Part shown: positions 1,671 through 7,764 of the stretch, in pieces
Layout: each line of letters starts with the position of its first letter
Position numbering within the stretch: position 1 is the first letter of the stretch
Assembly (NCBI GenBank): GCA_021108005.1
Contig: JAIORS010000137.1
Coordinates: forward strand, 1 to 34,189
Direction of reading: 5' to 3'
Source: Candidatus Aegiribacteria sp.
Lineage (GTDB): Bacteria; Fermentibacterota; Fermentibacteria; Fermentibacterales; JCC-6
DNA: 34,189 nt
The notes under the pieces: generated by a model
Databases searched by the model: none
The model's input: only the letters and a program-made list of their open reading frames with translations
What the model was told of the DNA's origin: nothing
Program-made: the position numbers and the translations under genes

Positions 1671-3152
1671 TCACTCCGAAATATGGATTACTTCCATGAC
1701 TGGACTTATCCGGGTTTCCGATAGGATCCTGTAGCCATCGGTCAGTTCCGGAGTTTTGGGTCCTCCCCAGTAATCGTACACTATCCAGATGGAATCGTGA
1801 CAATCCATCAAGCTGTCTATTGCTGAGTTCGGACTTTTACCCCACACCATGAGTTCAATATAGGGATTCTCACCGCCGAAGGCTGCCCTTGGAAAGTTCC
1901 CGGACGAATAGTAATCCCAGGCCAGCCCTCCTGATTGTCCTCCTAGAATGAGGATGCTTTCATCACTGGAAAATCTTTCCTCAACATATGCTGTGGCACC
2001 TCTCCAATCCGATCTGTGGTAAGGAAAACTGTTGATATTGTAGTATGGAAGAAGCGTGATAGCTGCTGCAATGAATATGAAAGGCCCTGCGAACTTCCAC
2101 CTCTGTGATGCCGCGGCGAGTGCGAAACCAAACGGTATCCAGAGAATCGTCAGATGCCTTACGGTCGGATCTTCCTTAATAAAAATCATGAAGGGAACTG
2201 CAAATAGAAGGAGAAGCCATACTTTGAATTTTTTGTCAAGCAGATTACTCAGAAACAGATTAAGAAGCAGCAACAGGTTTCCCGCTCCAATAATGAACCA
2301 GAAGACTATCTGTTTAACATTCCGGATCATTTCGTAGCCAGCTTCCAGAAGTAATCCTCCCGGAATGAGCCTTACGAAGACCGTTGGAACTCTGACTATA
2401 AACCGGTATCTGTAGACTGCGGCCATGTCCATGCCGGCCCGCCTTATCCTCTCAGCCCTGAACGAGGTTTGTTTCACCATCAAAACAGCGAAGGGCGCGT
2501 AAAGAACAAGAAAAATGGCCGACACCAGGACAAGCTGCCTGAAAGGAAGCCTTTGCTTCCGCGGAACGGTGAAGTATAGAGCAAATCCCGCAGCAATGAA
2601 CAGGCCAAACATATGCTGAATCAGCATTCCGGTAAGAGCAATTGGTACAACGAAATATAGTGCCTTCCTGCTGCAGTTCCATGCTCTGTCAGCAATATCG
2701 ATGAAAAGAAAGCCAAAGCAGGAGATGATCCCGTAAAGCCATGCCTCCTGCCCCATCGATATCGCAAAAGGTGAAACCGACCATATCAGACCCGCCCATA
2801 GAGCCGATCTGAAACTTATTTTTCTTGATATGAAACACATGAGGGGAATGGCGGCAAGAGCAGAGGCAAGAGCCGGGATCATGCGCAGGCCAGCTTCACT
2901 CTGACCGAAAATGACTGTCGAGAATCTTATAAACAGAAAAGCCAGTGGAGGGTGGGGAGAACCGGCAATGGACAATTTCACAAGATCGATAGGATTCATA
3001 TCCATGAGGCCTGCCGCATAGGCTTCATCAACCCATAGACTTTTGGATCCAATACAAATCAGTCGAAGTACGAATCCTGCGACAAATACCAGGAGATACG
3101 CAAGCCAATGGTTCTCAGCGATAAGTTTACTGCATTTTTTTATACCATTCAC
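1671..3152 (-). CDS. GT-C membrane glycosyltransferase (GT39/ArnT-like)
   Basis: This is a polytopic membrane protein of about 493 residues with the layout of GT-C glycosyltransferases, which move a sugar from a polyprenyl phosphate to a target on the outer side of the inner membrane. Near the N terminus it has SLWVDEA (D42, E43), the first-loop acidic motif of GT39/PMT and ArnT-like enzymes, then SPHPPL at about 66-70. Some ten hydrophobic segments follow, and a soluble C-terminal part covers roughly the last 110 residues. The open frame extends to 3356 inside the radical SAM gene, so I take GTG at 3152 as start, just before the first membrane span; TTG at 3164 is possible. Its stop is 4 bp from the convergent arsR. 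It is likely cotranscribed with the two upstream genes. Substrate and sugar are unknown. Confidence 0.7.
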   Translation of the reverse strand: MNGIKKCSKLIAENHWLAYLLVFVAGFVLRLICIGSKSLWVDEAYAAGLMDMNPIDLVKLSIAGSPHPPLAFLFIRFSTVIFGQSEAGLRMIPALASALAAIPLMCFISRKISFRSALWAGLIWSVSPFAISMGQEAWLYGIISCFGFLFIDIADRAWNCSRKALYFVVPIALTGMLIQHMFGLFIAAGFALYFTVPRKQRLPFRQLVLVSAIFLVLYAPFAVLMVKQTSFRAERIRRAGMDMAAVYRYRFIVRVPTVFVRLIPGGLLLEAGYEMIRNVKQIVFWFIIGAGNLLLLLNLFLSNLLDKKFKVWLLLLFAVPFMIFIKEDPTVRHLTILWIPFGFALAAASQRWKFAGPFIFIAAAITLLPYYNINSFPYHRSDWRGATAYVEERFSSDESILILGGQSGGLAWDYYSSGNFPRAAFGGENPYIELMVWGKSPNSAIDSLMDCHDSIWIVYDYWGGPKTPELTDGYRILSETRISPVMEVIHISE

Positions 3153-3198
3153 CGTCCAGTTCAATCTGTCAGAGTCGGAGATGAACCTAACAGATGTA

Positions 3199-4155
3199 TC
3201 AGCGAATGGGTATAGCCCGCAGGAACCTGCATCCTCCCCCGCAGACTCTGTTGGAAGCACACAATGTACAATCTGAACGCGCGTTGTCTTTACGGAATTT
3301 CTCAACGAATTGAGATCGTGACAGCTCTTCGAATGATTTATCCAGGAGATTTCCAATTACGTACGGACTCTGCTCGCATACTCTCAGTTCTCCAGAGGGG
3401 CTTATCGCCCATTTTCCAGCTCCGCATATGCATGATCCGAATTTAATGCCTGGATAATCGTTGTGATGCAGGATACAGTTCTCTACCGGAATGGCAGCGT
3501 ATACTGTCATTCCGGGGGACATGAGTGAGCTGTGGCTGGCGTTTTTCAGTGATGAATCAAGCTGCTCAATAGAAGGTAGGAGATGCCTGTTCTTAAAACC
3601 TGTTCCGCCAGGCACGAATCTGTTGAGGGCGACCGCGTCCGCGGAGAAAGCGTAGGCCAGATCAACAACCCGCTCGGTATCTCCTGGATTAAGTGAAGTT
3701 ATTATATGTGAAACAGTAAGTCGGATTCCGACTGAGGCAGCGGCAAGTAAGGCCCGTTTCACATCGTGAAATCCATCGAAGCCTGTCAGATTCCTGTATC
3801 CATTTCCAGTAATTGAAGGCACGGATACTTCAAGCCATGCAATGCCTGCTTCCTTTAACGATCTCGCGGTATCACGATCAAGGAGCATGCCATTAGTTGC
3901 AATTCCAACCAGTATTCCACGTTTACGAAACACGCTGACTATCTCGCAAATGTCTTGTCTTAAAAGAGGTTCTCCACCGGTAAGTGTAACCGAAACGGGA
4001 TGTGCCGCCAGAATAGAATCCGCAAGGATCTCTATCTCTTGAACGGAGAGTTCCCGGGGGTATAGCTCACCTTCCGCCTTCCATACATTGTAGCAGTATA
4101 CGCAGGCAAGATTACACCGAGGTGTAATCTCGAAAACGAATAAGGGATGTTTCAT
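3199..4155 (-). CDS. radical SAM/SPASM-domain protein
   Basis: This is a radical SAM enzyme of 318 residues. C14-x3-C18-x2-C21 (CNLACVYC) binds the catalytic 4Fe-4S cluster, and LTGGEPLL is the SAM-binding GGE motif. The C-terminal third is SPASM-like: SCICGAGKWAISPSGELRVC, then CTLCASNRVCGGGC, for auxiliary iron-sulfur clusters. Known relatives (PqqE, AlbA, anSME, MftC, NirJ/AhbD) modify peptides, proteins or tetrapyrroles. The chain ends nine residues after the last CGGGC, so the usual final cysteine of a full SPASM domain seems missing. ATG 4155 is chosen because it starts directly before the core; TTG 4176 overlaps the upstream gene. It lies 7 bp after a secreted-protein gene and before a GT-C gene. 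The fold is certain. The substrate is unknown, and no short precursor-peptide gene is evident nearby. Confidence 0.85.
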   Translation of the reverse strand: MKHPLFVFEITPRCNLACVYCYNVWKAEGELYPRELSVQEIEILADSILAAHPVSVTLTGGEPLLRQDICEIVSVFRKRGILVGIATNGMLLDRDTARSLKEAGIAWLEVSVPSITGNGYRNLTGFDGFHDVKRALLAAASVGIRLTVSHIITSLNPGDTERVVDLAYAFSADAVALNRFVPGGTGFKNRHLLPSIEQLDSSLKNASHSSLMSPGMTVYAAIPVENCILHHNDYPGIKFGSCICGAGKWAISPSGELRVCEQSPYVIGNLLDKSFEELSRSQFVEKFRKDNARSDCTLCASNRVCGGGCRFLRAIPIR

Positions 4156-4162
4156 GTGGAAA

Positions 4163-5038
4163 TCAGAAAAGTTCAAGATCCAGAAGAAGATCGTGCAGGG
4201 CAGGCAGCCTGTCCCGGGTGCGGCTTATGGATCTTTCCATATCCTCCAGATCCTCGAGCAGTACACAGCGCTCCTCTTCATTGTTTACTCCTGAATTTTC
4301 AAGGCTGTCCAGTACCGCGGTTTTAATGCTGTCGAGATAAGGCGGTATCAGATCGGCCTCAAGAGGCCATCTGACCGACCAGAGAACCCCTGCGTAACCG
4401 ACTCTTTCGCTGACAGTCTCCAGAAGGAAATAGGTGTCAATTGAAGATCTTAGATTGCTGAAGGCGGTTATCATTTCCCCGGAGGAGATGAGGCCCTCCT
4501 CCCTGAGACGGATAACGGTATCGAGCCTGGCTTCAATCTGAGAGACAAGATAATCAGTCTGCTCTGAAACGGGCGGCGGCATCATCCTTGTCAGGGAAAA
4601 CATCGAACCGTAGGAAAGAAATGTAAGCCTGTCGGTTGCCAGTTTGTGGAGGAGGCCGATATCGAGGGAGTCAATTCCAATTTCTTCCGCGATTCCCATG
4701 AGTTCGACATAACTGTTGTCCAGCTCAGTCCTGATTTTGTCGATTGTTTCATAATCAAGATCGCTGGAGCTGTGATTAACGTCAGCTTGTTCCATATTGT
4801 TCAGTTTCTTCCAGATTCTCTTGAATTCCTGCCACTGAGGATTGCTCCAAAGAGCCGAAGTTCTGGCGAGCAGGGATCGCGACAAATCAACGCTCGAACC
4901 GGGGTTATCAACTGCACCGCTCCGGTTGCTGTTCTGATCTGAAGCTGAAGCGGCATTCAACGGTAGCAGACCCGCAGCAAACAAAATGCTCAAAGTCGGT
5001 GTAATCAGCCTATTCTGAAACCTGCTATTGTTCTCCAT
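4163..5038 (-). CDS. secreted alpha-helical protein of unknown function
   Basis: I do not recognise a family. The 291-residue product starts with a typical signal peptide: a short basic stretch, a hydrophobic core (LSILFAAGLL) and an ASA-type cleavage site near residue 35. There is no lipobox. The mature part is acidic and looks almost wholly helical, with many Leu, Glu and Asp, a proline stretch MMPPP in the middle and a single cysteine near the C terminus. The ATG at 5038 is chosen over ATG 5062 because GGGAGG stands six bases before it. The radical SAM gene starts 7 bp downstream, so the two are likely translated together. It may be a partner or substrate of the radical SAM enzyme or the glycosyltransferase, but that rests on position only. 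Confidence 0.6.
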   Translation of the reverse strand: MENNSRFQNRLITPTLSILFAAGLLPLNAASASDQNSNRSGAVDNPGSSVDLSRSLLARTSALWSNPQWQEFKRIWKKLNNMEQADVNHSSSDLDYETIDKIRTELDNSYVELMGIAEEIGIDSLDIGLLHKLATDRLTFLSYGSMFSLTRMMPPPVSEQTDYLVSQIEARLDTVIRLREEGLISSGEMITAFSNLRSSIDTYFLLETVSERVGYAGVLWSVRWPLEADLIPPYLDSIKTAVLDSLENSGVNNEEERCVLLEDLEDMERSISRTRDRLPALHDLLLDLELF

Positions 5039-5109: not shown

Positions 5110-5137
5110 TTGACCGGAGAGTTCATAAGATTAGATT
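5110..5137 (+). promoter_or_regulatory. possible sigma-70 promoter of the GNAT gene
   Basis: TTGACC at 5110-5115 and TAGATT at 5132-5137 are separated by 16 bp. They stand 30 bp upstream of the GNAT start at 5167. The -10 match is only four of six, so this is tentative. The 128-bp gap must also hold the promoter of the divergent secreted-protein operon, for which I see no clear boxes. Confidence 0.35.
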
Positions 5138-5166
5138 CATCCTATAAAAACAAAGAAGGAGTCTTA

Positions 5167-6294
5167 ATGACTACAGTTATTGAACAGGTAAAAACAAAGA
5201 GTGAACTGAACGATTTCATCATGCTGCCTTACGAACTTTACAGGGATGATCCCCTCTGGATTCCCCCTCTTATCTCTCAGGAAAAGGCTCAGTTCAATCC
5301 GGATAAGAATCCCGCCTACAGATACTGTGATACCAGTTTCTTTCTGGCCCTGCGCGGTGGCAGAACTGTGGGCCGTATAGCCGCCATAGTAAACAGAAGG
5401 TACATTGAAAAACTGGAGCAAGACTGCGGAAGATTCGGATGGTTCGAATGCGAGAATAACCTGGAAACAGCCAATGCGCTTTTCAGCACTGCGGAGAACT
5501 GGCTCGCGAAAAAAGGCATGACAGCGATATCGGGCCCTATGGGTTTCACAGATAACGACATGACAGGATTTCTCATTGAGGGGTTCGATGAACTCCCCAC
5601 AATAGCGGGTAGCTACAACCCACCGTGGTACAACGATATAATTACATCCAGAGGTTACGATAAGGAAGTTGACTACGTTGAATATAAGATAACAGTACCA
5701 AAGGCCTTTCCCGAGAAAGTGGAACGCCTGACAACCCTGATAAAGAAAAGAAGCAGAGTTAAAGTATTCAACGAAAAATCTAAAAAAAACCTCTCGAAGA
5801 GATGGGGACACCAGATTTTCGACGTTCTGAATGAATCCTACGAGAAGCTGTACGGTACGACTCTGTTGGATGAAAAGGAAATAGACTACTACATAAAAAC
5901 CTATCTTGGGCAAGTTGATCCGGAGTTCATCAAACTCGCGGTTGACGGAGACAGGCTTGTGGGATTCATAATTGCGATGCCCAATCTTTCAAGGTCTTTC
6001 CAGAAGGCAAAAGGCAGGCTTTTTCCATTCGGTTTCATTCATATTCTCAGGGAAATGAAAAATAGCAGGACTTTGGATTTCTACCTTGCGGGCATCCTCC
6101 CTGCATACCAGGGGCAAGGTGTGGACGCTTTACTGGCCTACGAAATGGGAGTAAGCTCTTTCAAAAGAAAAATGGAATTTGCTGAGAGCAACCATGAATT
6201 GGAAGACAATAAAAAGATCCAGGCTATGTGGAAATTTTACGAAAAACGTCTTCACCGAAGAATCCGCGTCTATCAACGCACCCTGGGGACGTAG
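5167..6294 (+). CDS. YghO-like GNAT-family acyltransferase
   Basis: This 375-residue cytoplasmic protein resembles the large two-lobed GNAT proteins of the YghO type. The N-terminal part has DDPLWIPPL followed by FFLALRGGRTVGRIAAIVN, a GNAT beta4-A-motif pattern (R/Q-x-x-G-x-I/A). The middle holds MGFTDNDMTGFLIEGFDE and YNPPWYND, blocks conserved in this group. The C-terminal lobe has LVGFIIAMPNLS and AGILPAYQGQGVDALL, a second acetyl-CoA-type motif. The start is ATG 5167 because AGAAGGAG stands five bases upstream; the open frame begins earlier, at 5095, without such a site. It is divergent from the secreted-protein/radical SAM cassette and convergent with the aldehyde dehydrogenase. Family membership is fairly safe. 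The acyl acceptor is unknown. Confidence 0.75.
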   Translation: MTTVIEQVKTKSELNDFIMLPYELYRDDPLWIPPLISQEKAQFNPDKNPAYRYCDTSFFLALRGGRTVGRIAAIVNRRYIEKLEQDCGRFGWFECENNLETANALFSTAENWLAKKGMTAISGPMGFTDNDMTGFLIEGFDELPTIAGSYNPPWYNDIITSRGYDKEVDYVEYKITVPKAFPEKVERLTTLIKKRSRVKVFNEKSKKNLSKRWGHQIFDVLNESYEKLYGTTLLDEKEIDYYIKTYLGQVDPEFIKLAVDGDRLVGFIIAMPNLSRSFQKAKGRLFPFGFIHILREMKNSRTLDFYLAGILPAYQGQGVDALLAYEMGVSSFKRKMEFAESNHELEDNKKIQAMWKFYEKRLHRRIRVYQRTLGT

Positions 6295-6320
6295 CACATA
6301 GGACAAATAGGGGAGGCAAA

Positions 6321-6377
6321 TAGGGGTCAAATCTTTACTCTTGACATTAAATGTCAAGAGTAAAGATTTGACCCCTA
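6321..6377. repeat. 57-bp perfect palindrome (REP/IS200-like element)
   Basis: Two perfectly complementary 27-nt arms, 6321-6347 and 6351-6377, are joined by TAA. Each arm runs from TAGGGGTCAAATC at the outside to CTTGACAT near the centre. The direct repeat AAATAGGGG occurs twice at its left side (6305-6313 and 6318-6326). It fills the gap between the convergent GNAT and aldehyde dehydrogenase genes. Perfect arms of this length are too long for an ordinary terminator and resemble REP/BIME-type hairpins mobilised by IS200/IS605-family (Y1, RAYT) transposases. No transposase gene is in the window. It probably also stops transcription from both sides. Confidence 0.8.
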
Positions 6378-6384
6378 TAACACA

Positions 6385-7764
6385 TCATTTGTTAATGATA
6401 TAAACCGTCTTGCAATTCATGAATTCAAGCATACCACTTCTAGACAGTTCTCTACCAAAACCTGATAGACCAATTCCACCGAAGGGAAGCCTTGGATCAG
6501 ACCGGACAAACGAGTTTACGAAGCAGGCTCCAGCGTTCAGCTCAAGGGCGATTCTTTCCCCCCTTCGACTGTTCCGCGTATATACGGAAGCTCCAAGTCC
6601 GTAGGATGTATCGTTGGCAATCACAACAGCTTCCCCCTCATCCTTCACTGAGCAGACAGCTGCTACAGGCCCGAAGGTTTCTTCATCAAAAACAGGCATA
6701 CCCTTTCTACAACCCGTCAGAACGGTAGGCGGATAGAAAGCCCCAGGATGATCCGGAATTCTGCCGCCAGTAACTAATTTTGCCCCAAGCTCTATGCTCT
6801 TAGTAACCTGCCGGTGCAGATTATCACGAAGATCGTATCTGGCCATCGGTCCCAGATCAATTTTCATCTTCATCGGATCGCCCATCTTCCTTGCTTTCAT
6901 CTCACCGATAAGTAAATCAAGGAATTCATCGTAAACACTTTCGATGACGATGAACCTCTTGGATGCAATACAGTTCTGTCCTGTATTGATAAGCCTGGAG
7001 AACGCTGTCTGCCTGGCTGCGTCCCTTAGATCCGCATCTTCAAGAATTATCGCGGGATCACTTCCTCCAAGTTCCAGCACGCACTTCTTTATGGACGACC
7101 CGGCTTCCAAGGCAACTGCGCTCCCTGCTTTTGCGCTTCCGGTAAGCGTAACAGCTTTAACCCTTTCGTCAGCAATTATTCCGCTGGATACTTCGTGAAC
7201 GTTTTCCTCCGAAACAAGAACAACGTCAATCAGGCCTTTGGGAAATTCTGCCTCCCTGAACAGATCCCGGATGCGTATGGAACATCCCGAAACATTAGGA
7301 GCATGCTTGAGGATGAAGGAGTTCCCCGCCATTACAGCAGGTGCCGCGAACCGGAATAACTGCCAGAACGGAAAGTTCCATGGCATGACGGCATAGATAA
7401 CTCCAAGAGGCTGATAGCACACATAGCTTATATCAGCATCACTCGCGATACTTTCTTCAGCAAGGAAATCAGAACCGTTTTCAGCGTAATACCTGCAAAC
7501 CAATGCACATTTCTCAATTTCGGACTGCCCCTGCTCAACGGGCTTACCCATCTCCGCAGCCATCTCCACTGCCAGATGGTGTTTGCCCGATTCAAGAAGA
7601 TTGGCAAGATTCAACAGCCGTTTCGATCGATAACTTATTCCGATGTCACGCCAGAATTCAAACGCTCTCTGAGATTTCTCAAGGATATCTAAAATTTCTT
7701 CCGAAGTATTCTCATTCCACGACCTGATTCTTTCCCCGGTGAAAGGATTTATCGACTGAAGCAC
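6385..7764 (-). CDS. NAD(P)-dependent aldehyde dehydrogenase, succinate-semialdehyde type
   Basis: This 459-residue enzyme of the aldehyde dehydrogenase superfamily oxidises an aldehyde to a carboxylate with NAD(P). The motifs are complete: VMPWNFPFWQ for cofactor binding at about 127-135, VTLTGSAKAGSAV at 205-217, general base E231 in LELGGSDP, nucleophile C265 in NTGQNCIASKR, EETFGPVAAV and the C-terminal LPFGGIGLSGFGRE. The short form of about 455-460 residues and NCIASKRFIV resemble the Sad/YneI group, which acts on succinate semialdehyde and related short aldehydes; that assignment is an inference. The start is GTG 7764 with AGGGATG upstream. It stands alone, with the palindrome just after its stop and a divergent DUF2259 gene upstream, so its pathway is not given by context. 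Confidence 0.88.
   Translation of the reverse strand: MLQSINPFTGERIRSWNENTSEEILDILEKSQRAFEFWRDIGISYRSKRLLNLANLLESGKHHLAVEMAAEMGKPVEQGQSEIEKCALVCRYYAENGSDFLAEESIASDADISYVCYQPLGVIYAVMPWNFPFWQLFRFAAPAVMAGNSFILKHAPNVSGCSIRIRDLFREAEFPKGLIDVVLVSEENVHEVSSGIIADERVKAVTLTGSAKAGSAVALEAGSSIKKCVLELGGSDPAIILEDADLRDAARQTAFSRLINTGQNCIASKRFIVIESVYDEFLDLLIGEMKARKMGDPMKMKIDLGPMARYDLRDNLHRQVTKSIELGAKLVTGGRIPDHPGAFYPPTVLTGCRKGMPVFDEETFGPVAAVCSVKDEGEAVVIANDTSYGLGASVYTRNSRRGERIALELNAGACFVNSFVRSDPRLPFGGIGLSGFGRELSRSGMLEFMNCKTVYIINK

Follow-up and report, generated by a model that had tools for sequence, protein, structure and literature searches.

Within the 34,189-nucleotide stretch of DNA analysed here (the window: positions 1 to 34,189 of contig JAIORS010000137.1, from a 3.2 Mb assembly of Candidatus Aegiribacteria sp., phylum Fermentibacterota), two adjoining minus-strand genes form a real and conserved pair, probably an undescribed maturase with its substrate. 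The first, an open reading frame (ORF) at positions 4163–5038 with an ATG start, encodes an exported protein of 291 amino acids, predicted to be all-helical and belonging to no named family; we refer to it as SEC and propose it as the substrate. The second (3199–4155, ATG start) lies 7 bp past SEC and encodes a radical SAM/SPASM enzyme of 318 amino acids, the proposed maturase. We consider it likely that the enzyme, which resembles the anaerobic sulfatase-maturating enzymes (anSMEs), modifies an Arg-Met (R-M) loop of SEC before export: a reading that draws on the pairing of the genes, their conservation, the enzyme clade and a correlation between partner motif and active-site residue.

The enzyme would bind newly made SEC in the cytoplasm and abstract hydrogen from one position of the loop motif T-R-M-x-P-P, most likely Arg151, which would thereby be altered; SEC would then be exported. 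Enzymes of a sister branch would act in the corresponding way on exported proteins that carry a Cys-Tyr (C-Y) motif. To our knowledge no such system has been described in the window's lineage, and the open-licence PubMed Central literature yielded no paper on the SEC–enzyme pair, on the families TIGR04133/34 (considered below) or on a ‘CY motif’.

Pairing of SEC and the enzyme in Fermentibacterota

The phylum was sampled through 42 genomes. The SEC profile matches 33 of them and the specific enzyme is found in 31: both are present in 31 genomes, SEC alone in two, the enzyme alone in none and neither in nine (Fisher p = 1.2e-7, uncorrected for kinship among the genomes). The two genomes with SEC only are G014, which is 61% complete, and G016, where SEC is cut by a contig end. 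In 30 of the 31 genomes that have the pair, SEC lies upstream and no more than 60 bp separate it from the enzyme, which argues that the two are not chance neighbours. In the sole exception (G035, locus L094) SEC and enzyme are each split by frame breaks and stand 4.2 kb apart: possibly a loss in progress, possibly a fault of assembly. Other surrounding genes vary by genus.

The number of SEC copies also varies. Some genomes of genus g5 carry two or three tandem SEC genes upstream of a single enzyme, and an extra copy without an adjacent enzyme occurs in the window's own genome, in G010 and in G013; G014 has only a copy of this kind. The second SEC of the window's genome (G000, contig C101; locus L098, 6595–7506) is 46% identical, keeps both T-R-M and the C-terminal motif, and adjoins no radical SAM gene. 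At five loci of genus g5 (L080, L082, L083, L086 and L087) the SEC–enzyme operon has, back to back with it, two genes for ABC exporters and one whose product contains a stretch resembling M29 peptidases (Pfam was run on L080 only).

The original prediction had taken the secreted protein as the candidate substrate of the radical SAM enzyme, within a three-gene cassette that also included a glycosyltransferase (GT), and had set as its test whether the three families are mostly found apart. SEC and the enzyme are found together; it is the GT that is found apart. Support for SEC as the candidate comes from co-occurrence, from adjacency, from the several copies per enzyme and from the covariation of its motif with an active-site residue.

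The conserved loop of SEC

SEC falls below every Pfam and NCBIfam cut-off; the original prediction had likewise placed it in no known family. Among 21 homologues there is a weak SHOCT match in two and a weak Lactamase_B_4 match in one; the SEC profile gave chance-like matches only against PDB sequences (the best, 0.0076, to a designed protein), and no relative was found in the viral contigs searched. A putative Sec signal peptide, read by eye from the translation, spans residues 1–32 (4943–5038, minus strand), ending in AASA before SD.

Conservation runs along the whole length of the protein. Motif counts were taken over 48 full-length homologues (an earlier alignment had left out 7 fragments of 47). 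R151, W69 and W76 are invariant (48/48). The arginine stands within T150-R151-M152-M-P-P (4574–4591, minus strand), the proposed modification site on the grounds of conservation and of its position in a loop of the model; T150 is kept in 43 and M152 in 42 of the proteins, with the consensus T-R-M-x-P-P. Two second SEC copies, from a family outside the phylum (f33), read TRC and TRS, which marks the arginine as the fixed part of the motif. Both tryptophans belong to the helix motif W69-x6-W76 (4811–4834, minus strand), and the C-terminal helix P279-x-L-x2-L-L-x-D-L (4166–4204, minus strand) has its proline in 46/48 and L288 in 47/48. Position 137 is Arg in 46 proteins and Lys in two. The structure model of SEC, built from two sequences only, is poor (pLDDT 45.6, pTM 0.35); it places residues 147–156 in a loop between two helices and, because of its low confidence, was used solely for the rough positions of helices and loops.

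Partner proteins beyond the phylum

A first survey, of 18 genomes from other phyla, had revealed no SEC. Close relatives of the enzyme then came to light outside the phylum in a scan of named contigs, from which the best 80 of 569 were retained, and in a second search covering 385 genomes. SEC homologues lie next to the same enzyme in three groups outside Fermentibacterota. One is a member of the Planctomycetota (L107), in which the homologue lies directly upstream (BLASTP 1e-10, hhalign 98.9%); the second is family f33, three genomes of which carry one or two homologues, recognised by profile matches, directly 5′ of the enzyme; the third is G310, described below.

A second kind of partner carries a C-Y stretch (for example, ITCYEP). 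It is found in upstream proteins, exported or other, at L106, L108 (Chloroflexota), L110 (Planctomycetota), L111, L113, L135 (Bacteroidota), and likewise upstream of the enzymes of L137 (Myxococcota) and L190 (f212). The bodies of these proteins are diverse, comprising Ser/Trp repeat proteins, small lipoproteins and short membrane-anchored proteins, and are without the W-x6-W helix. A single C-Y sequence compared with SEC revealed no link; an alignment of four, from Chloroflexota and Planctomycetota, matched it with an hhalign probability of 88 (E 2.9e-6), and by this profile comparison the C-Y partners of those two phyla may share the SEC scaffold. Since hhalign places C-Y some residues ahead of T-R-M, the equivalence of the two motifs is likely and not exact. 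The C-Y partners of Bacteroidota do not resemble SEC. At L111 (2519–5845; Bacteroidota) one enzyme, in which C260 is followed by Asn-His (C-N-H), comes after a series of small genes of lipoprotein-like type. A C-Y motif occurs once or twice in several of them, and the arrangement looks like a single maturase serving many short targets.

Two further loci depart from these patterns. In L109 (Omnitrophota) the partner is a membrane protein with TTSRMIVVPPE close to its end. L141 (Lentisphaerota, 5118–6897) has a lipoprotein-like gene with W-x6-W and no T-R-M, beside an enzyme without the last SPASM cysteines; this pair is perhaps decayed. In a control, the strict motif was present in the directly upstream gene at 13 of 20 loci of the enzyme clade and at 5 of 85 other radical SAM loci. 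In two of the 13 (L106 and L107) the first match lay elsewhere in the protein, which has the motif as well; the strict pattern missed three true members (L110, L137 and L249).

An active-site residue that follows the partner motif

A tree of 49 enzymes (IQ-TREE) unites those considered here in one clade (support 99/98), separate from 14 further enzymes of SPASM or related type. Enzymes with C-Y partners form one branch (99/97), and those with R-M partners, together with L141, form another (94/83); L109 is basal in the clade, on a long branch.

The two sets differ directly after SPASM cysteine C260: R-M enzymes have Glu-Gln (Glu-Met in one), as in E261-Q262 of the window enzyme (3370–3375, minus strand), and C-Y enzymes have Asn-His. 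Ten columns separate the sets without overlap. Position 261 alone is fixed within both, being Glu in 27/27 R-M and Asn in 10/10 C-Y enzymes. The comparison used 21 of the 31 phylum enzymes; excluded were ORFs that are short or cut by a contig end, and the broken gene of G035. Seven of the excluded enzymes still show C-E-Q by eye. In a weak match to the anSME anSMEcpe (E 0.2), C260 is aligned with C276 and E261 with Asp277, a residue that Goldman et al. are said to have identified, in 2013, as the catalytic base. A passage in PMC5682303 has C276 of anSMEcpe ligating an auxiliary cluster.

A rule predicting partner type from residue 261 was fixed before new genomes were looked at, and was correct in all four in which a partner was found. 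G394 and G600 (C-N-H) have C-Y partners; for the C-E-Q enzymes of G433 and G310 the partners are SEC homologues, which read VRMMPAP and TRMM. The C-E-Q of G310 (L191) was known beforehand and its partner was not. In G433 SEC and enzyme are on separate contigs, each close to a contig end; in G310 SEC immediately precedes the beginning of the enzyme gene, whose end is on another contig. No partner was found in G476 (C-E-H). Residue and tree are confounded, and the rule is therefore consistent evidence and not a count of many independent events.

Given Arg in one branch and Cys in the other, a reaction at the backbone (epimerisation or desaturation) or a carbon–carbon link would be compatible with both; a thioether or formylglycine would fit the Cys branch only.

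Motifs and fold of the enzyme

The assignment of the second gene to the SPASM-type radical SAM enzymes was confirmed by Pfam (Radical_SAM, 3e-25; SPASM, 9.3e-07, 29.5 bits against a cut-off of 21.5). CxxxCxxC, the motif of the radical SAM cluster (C14, C18 and C21; 4093–4116, minus strand), is invariant in three enzyme alignments, as is G60-G61-E62 in the alignments examined, both being hallmarks of the radical SAM superfamily. The SPASM region (3229–3477, minus strand) contains eight cysteines from C227 to C309. Seven are invariant (C227, C242, C244, C260, C296, C305 and C309) and C299 is kept at 90% or more; C244-x10-G255-x4-C260 and C296-C299-C305-C309 correspond to the SPASM motifs C-x9-15-G-x4-C and CX2CX5CX3C. 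Downstream of C309, where the eighth and last ligand of the auxiliary clusters is expected after CX3C, no cysteine is conserved; judging from the alignment, C227 or C244 may take its place.

The clade fits no NCBIfam model. Its best match, to the GeoRSP radical SAM family (TIGR04303, 2.5e-34), reaches 119.3 bits against a cut-off of 400, and GeoRSP identity was rejected on that score. PqqE, MftC, NirJ/NirJ2, AhbC/AhbD and MoaA were rejected likewise, the window enzyme lying far under the curated cut-offs.

The enzyme model is good (mean pLDDT 93.3, pTM 0.91). Among solved structures the closest in fold are SkfB (Z 27.7, 275 residues aligned, 2.9 Å), SuiB (Z 27.2) and anSME (Z 26.0, 291 aligned, root-mean-square deviation 2.8), and all of the top eight (Z 27.7 to 25.7) are peptide- or protein-modifying SPASM enzymes. 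ChlB, CteB and PqqE rank lower, with viperins, which are not peptide enzymes, interposed. SkfB and SuiB can be aligned only from residue ∼98–103 onward, so that their N-terminal part, which is the RiPP recognition element (RRE; RiPPs being ribosomally synthesised and post-translationally modified peptides), has no counterpart in the window enzyme, which begins at the radical SAM core.

The glycosyltransferase and other features of the window

All three minus-strand ORFs of the proposed cassette were borne out, with intergenic gaps of 7 and 46 bp. The third, the GT gene (1671–3152), has a GTG start 46 bp past the enzyme, and its product is of GT-C type, matching PMT_2 (PF13231) with 36.7 bits against a cut-off of 26.1. 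The ORF is extendable upstream to 3356, which would make it overlap the enzyme gene; the GTG at 3152 was taken as the start because it agrees with the predicted gap.

Membership of this gene in the cassette was not supported. The GT follows the pair in 8 of the 31 pair-bearing phylum genomes, all of the window's genus (g1), at roughly 46–165 bp from the enzyme where its start can be judged. It was not seen beside the other 23 phylum pairs, a few of which are cut by contig ends, nor beside pairs outside the phylum. Being limited to eight genomes of one genus, it was rejected as a core member and is treated as a facultative neighbour, probably a bystander or a genus-level addition; the SEC–enzyme core is what remains of the cassette.

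A terminator-like hairpin at the end of the GT gene (1660–1677) is weak evidence, since the region has six such sites against 3.6 expected from shuffles. Elsewhere in the window (6320–6378) an inverted repeat lies between two genes, its 29-bp arms matching perfectly around a loop of 1 nt; among the other loci fetched it is present only in copies of the same place. It resembles the ends of REP/RAYT-type elements. Positions 120–1361 encode an ArsP-type permease whose C-terminus is fused to a heavy-metal-associated domain.

Alternative explanations

SEC could be the substrate and yet be modified elsewhere, either in the W69-x3-K/R-x2-W76 helix (through a Lys/Arg-Trp or Trp-Trp cross-link) or in the C-terminal helix, with the R-M loop only an element of docking or folding. 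Both tryptophans are as invariant as R151, P279 and L288 are nearly so, and the second-best fold for the enzyme is SuiB, which forms a Lys-Trp cross-link. We regard this as unlikely: C-Y partners keep the short loop motif in quite different bodies, from which the W-x6-W helix is missing. Less likely again is that SEC is the enzyme's partner and not its substrate, for instance as a carrier, a chaperone or a sink for a small-molecule product of the enzyme. The size and export of SEC would suit such a role, and the clade's protein substrates are all predicted ones; but a cytosolic Fe-S enzyme and an exported SEC would meet only before export, and several SEC copies per enzyme, together with a partner motif that covaries with an active-site residue, are a better fit to a substrate. 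That pair and GT serve a surface-glycan pathway, in which a sugar or lipid precursor would be the enzyme's substrate, is very improbable: the eight genomes with an adjoining GT speak for it, the pairs lacking one speak against it, and the best-ranked folds of the enzyme are those of peptide-modifying enzymes.

Modification of the R-M loop by the enzyme is the reading we prefer, and several points weigh against it. The covalent change on SEC is a prediction made from the genes, and SEC is far larger than the usual RiPP precursors. Four SEC copies in the window's genus have no enzyme alongside; L141 and G476, both members of the clade with C-E-H, show neither motif nearby. The contrast of R-M with C-Y, and of Glu with Asn, tracks the tree and so represents few events, and nine columns besides position 261 also divide the two sets of enzymes. 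The correspondence with Asp277 rests on a weak match. From the evidence as a whole we infer three things: SEC as the substrate, the loop as the place of modification, and modification ahead of export.

Comparison with known systems

The closest likeness is to anSME: a SPASM enzyme that alters one residue of an exported protein, of similar fold and with a residue, Asp277, on which E261 aligns, if weakly. SEC matches no sulfatase family, and its motif is T-R-M-x-P-P, whereas the sulfatase motif acted on by anSME is C/S-x-P/A-x-R; the Arg of SEC cannot become formylglycine. Nor is the eighth SPASM cysteine, past C309, conserved in the window's clade. An anSME proper was rejected because there is no sulfatase-like partner; in a single phylum genome (L073) a sulfatase adjoins the enzyme.

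The maturases SkfB, SuiB, CteB, ChlB and PqqE share the radical SAM and SPASM fold and rank high in the structural comparison, and their precursors are short peptides. A plain RiPP system was rejected on two grounds: SEC, at 291 residues conserved throughout, exceeds the length of a precursor peptide, and the enzyme seems to have no RRE joined to it. Maturases next to signal-peptide proteins are known from GrrM/GrrA and similar radical SAM systems, GrrA being glycine-rich. The families TIGR04133 and TIGR04134 (a radical SAM enzyme with a lipoprotein, from Bacteroidota, with no assigned function) are alike in setting a SPASM enzyme beside an exported protein; the window enzyme, however, scores 65.7 bits with TIGR04133 against a cut-off of 425. 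One Bacteroidota locus (L208, 1390–3052) encodes a protein with a sub-threshold TIGR04134 match and C-Y-G-A-P at its lipobox, followed by a radical SAM gene whose product falls outside the clade on a long branch. This C-Y-G-A-P may belong to the same class of motif, in a pair that is known although not yet studied.

Implications

The wider claim is that a SPASM clade spanning at least six named phyla and several further groups modifies a short loop of exported proteins, at Arg (T-R-M) or at Cys (T-C-Y) as set by Glu or Asn at the position of anSME Asp277, the Arg branch making an undescribed backbone or side-chain modification in a folded exported protein. We advance it tentatively and lean somewhat against its holding in full. 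What the window offers is a concrete, testable candidate for an enzyme and its substrate, with R151 as the predicted site and E261 as the residue predicted to set specificity. If this is right, a maturase clade found in many phyla would target an exported protein rather than a small peptide, and its two branches would provide a natural Arg/Cys switch from which to learn how SPASM enzymes select their residue.

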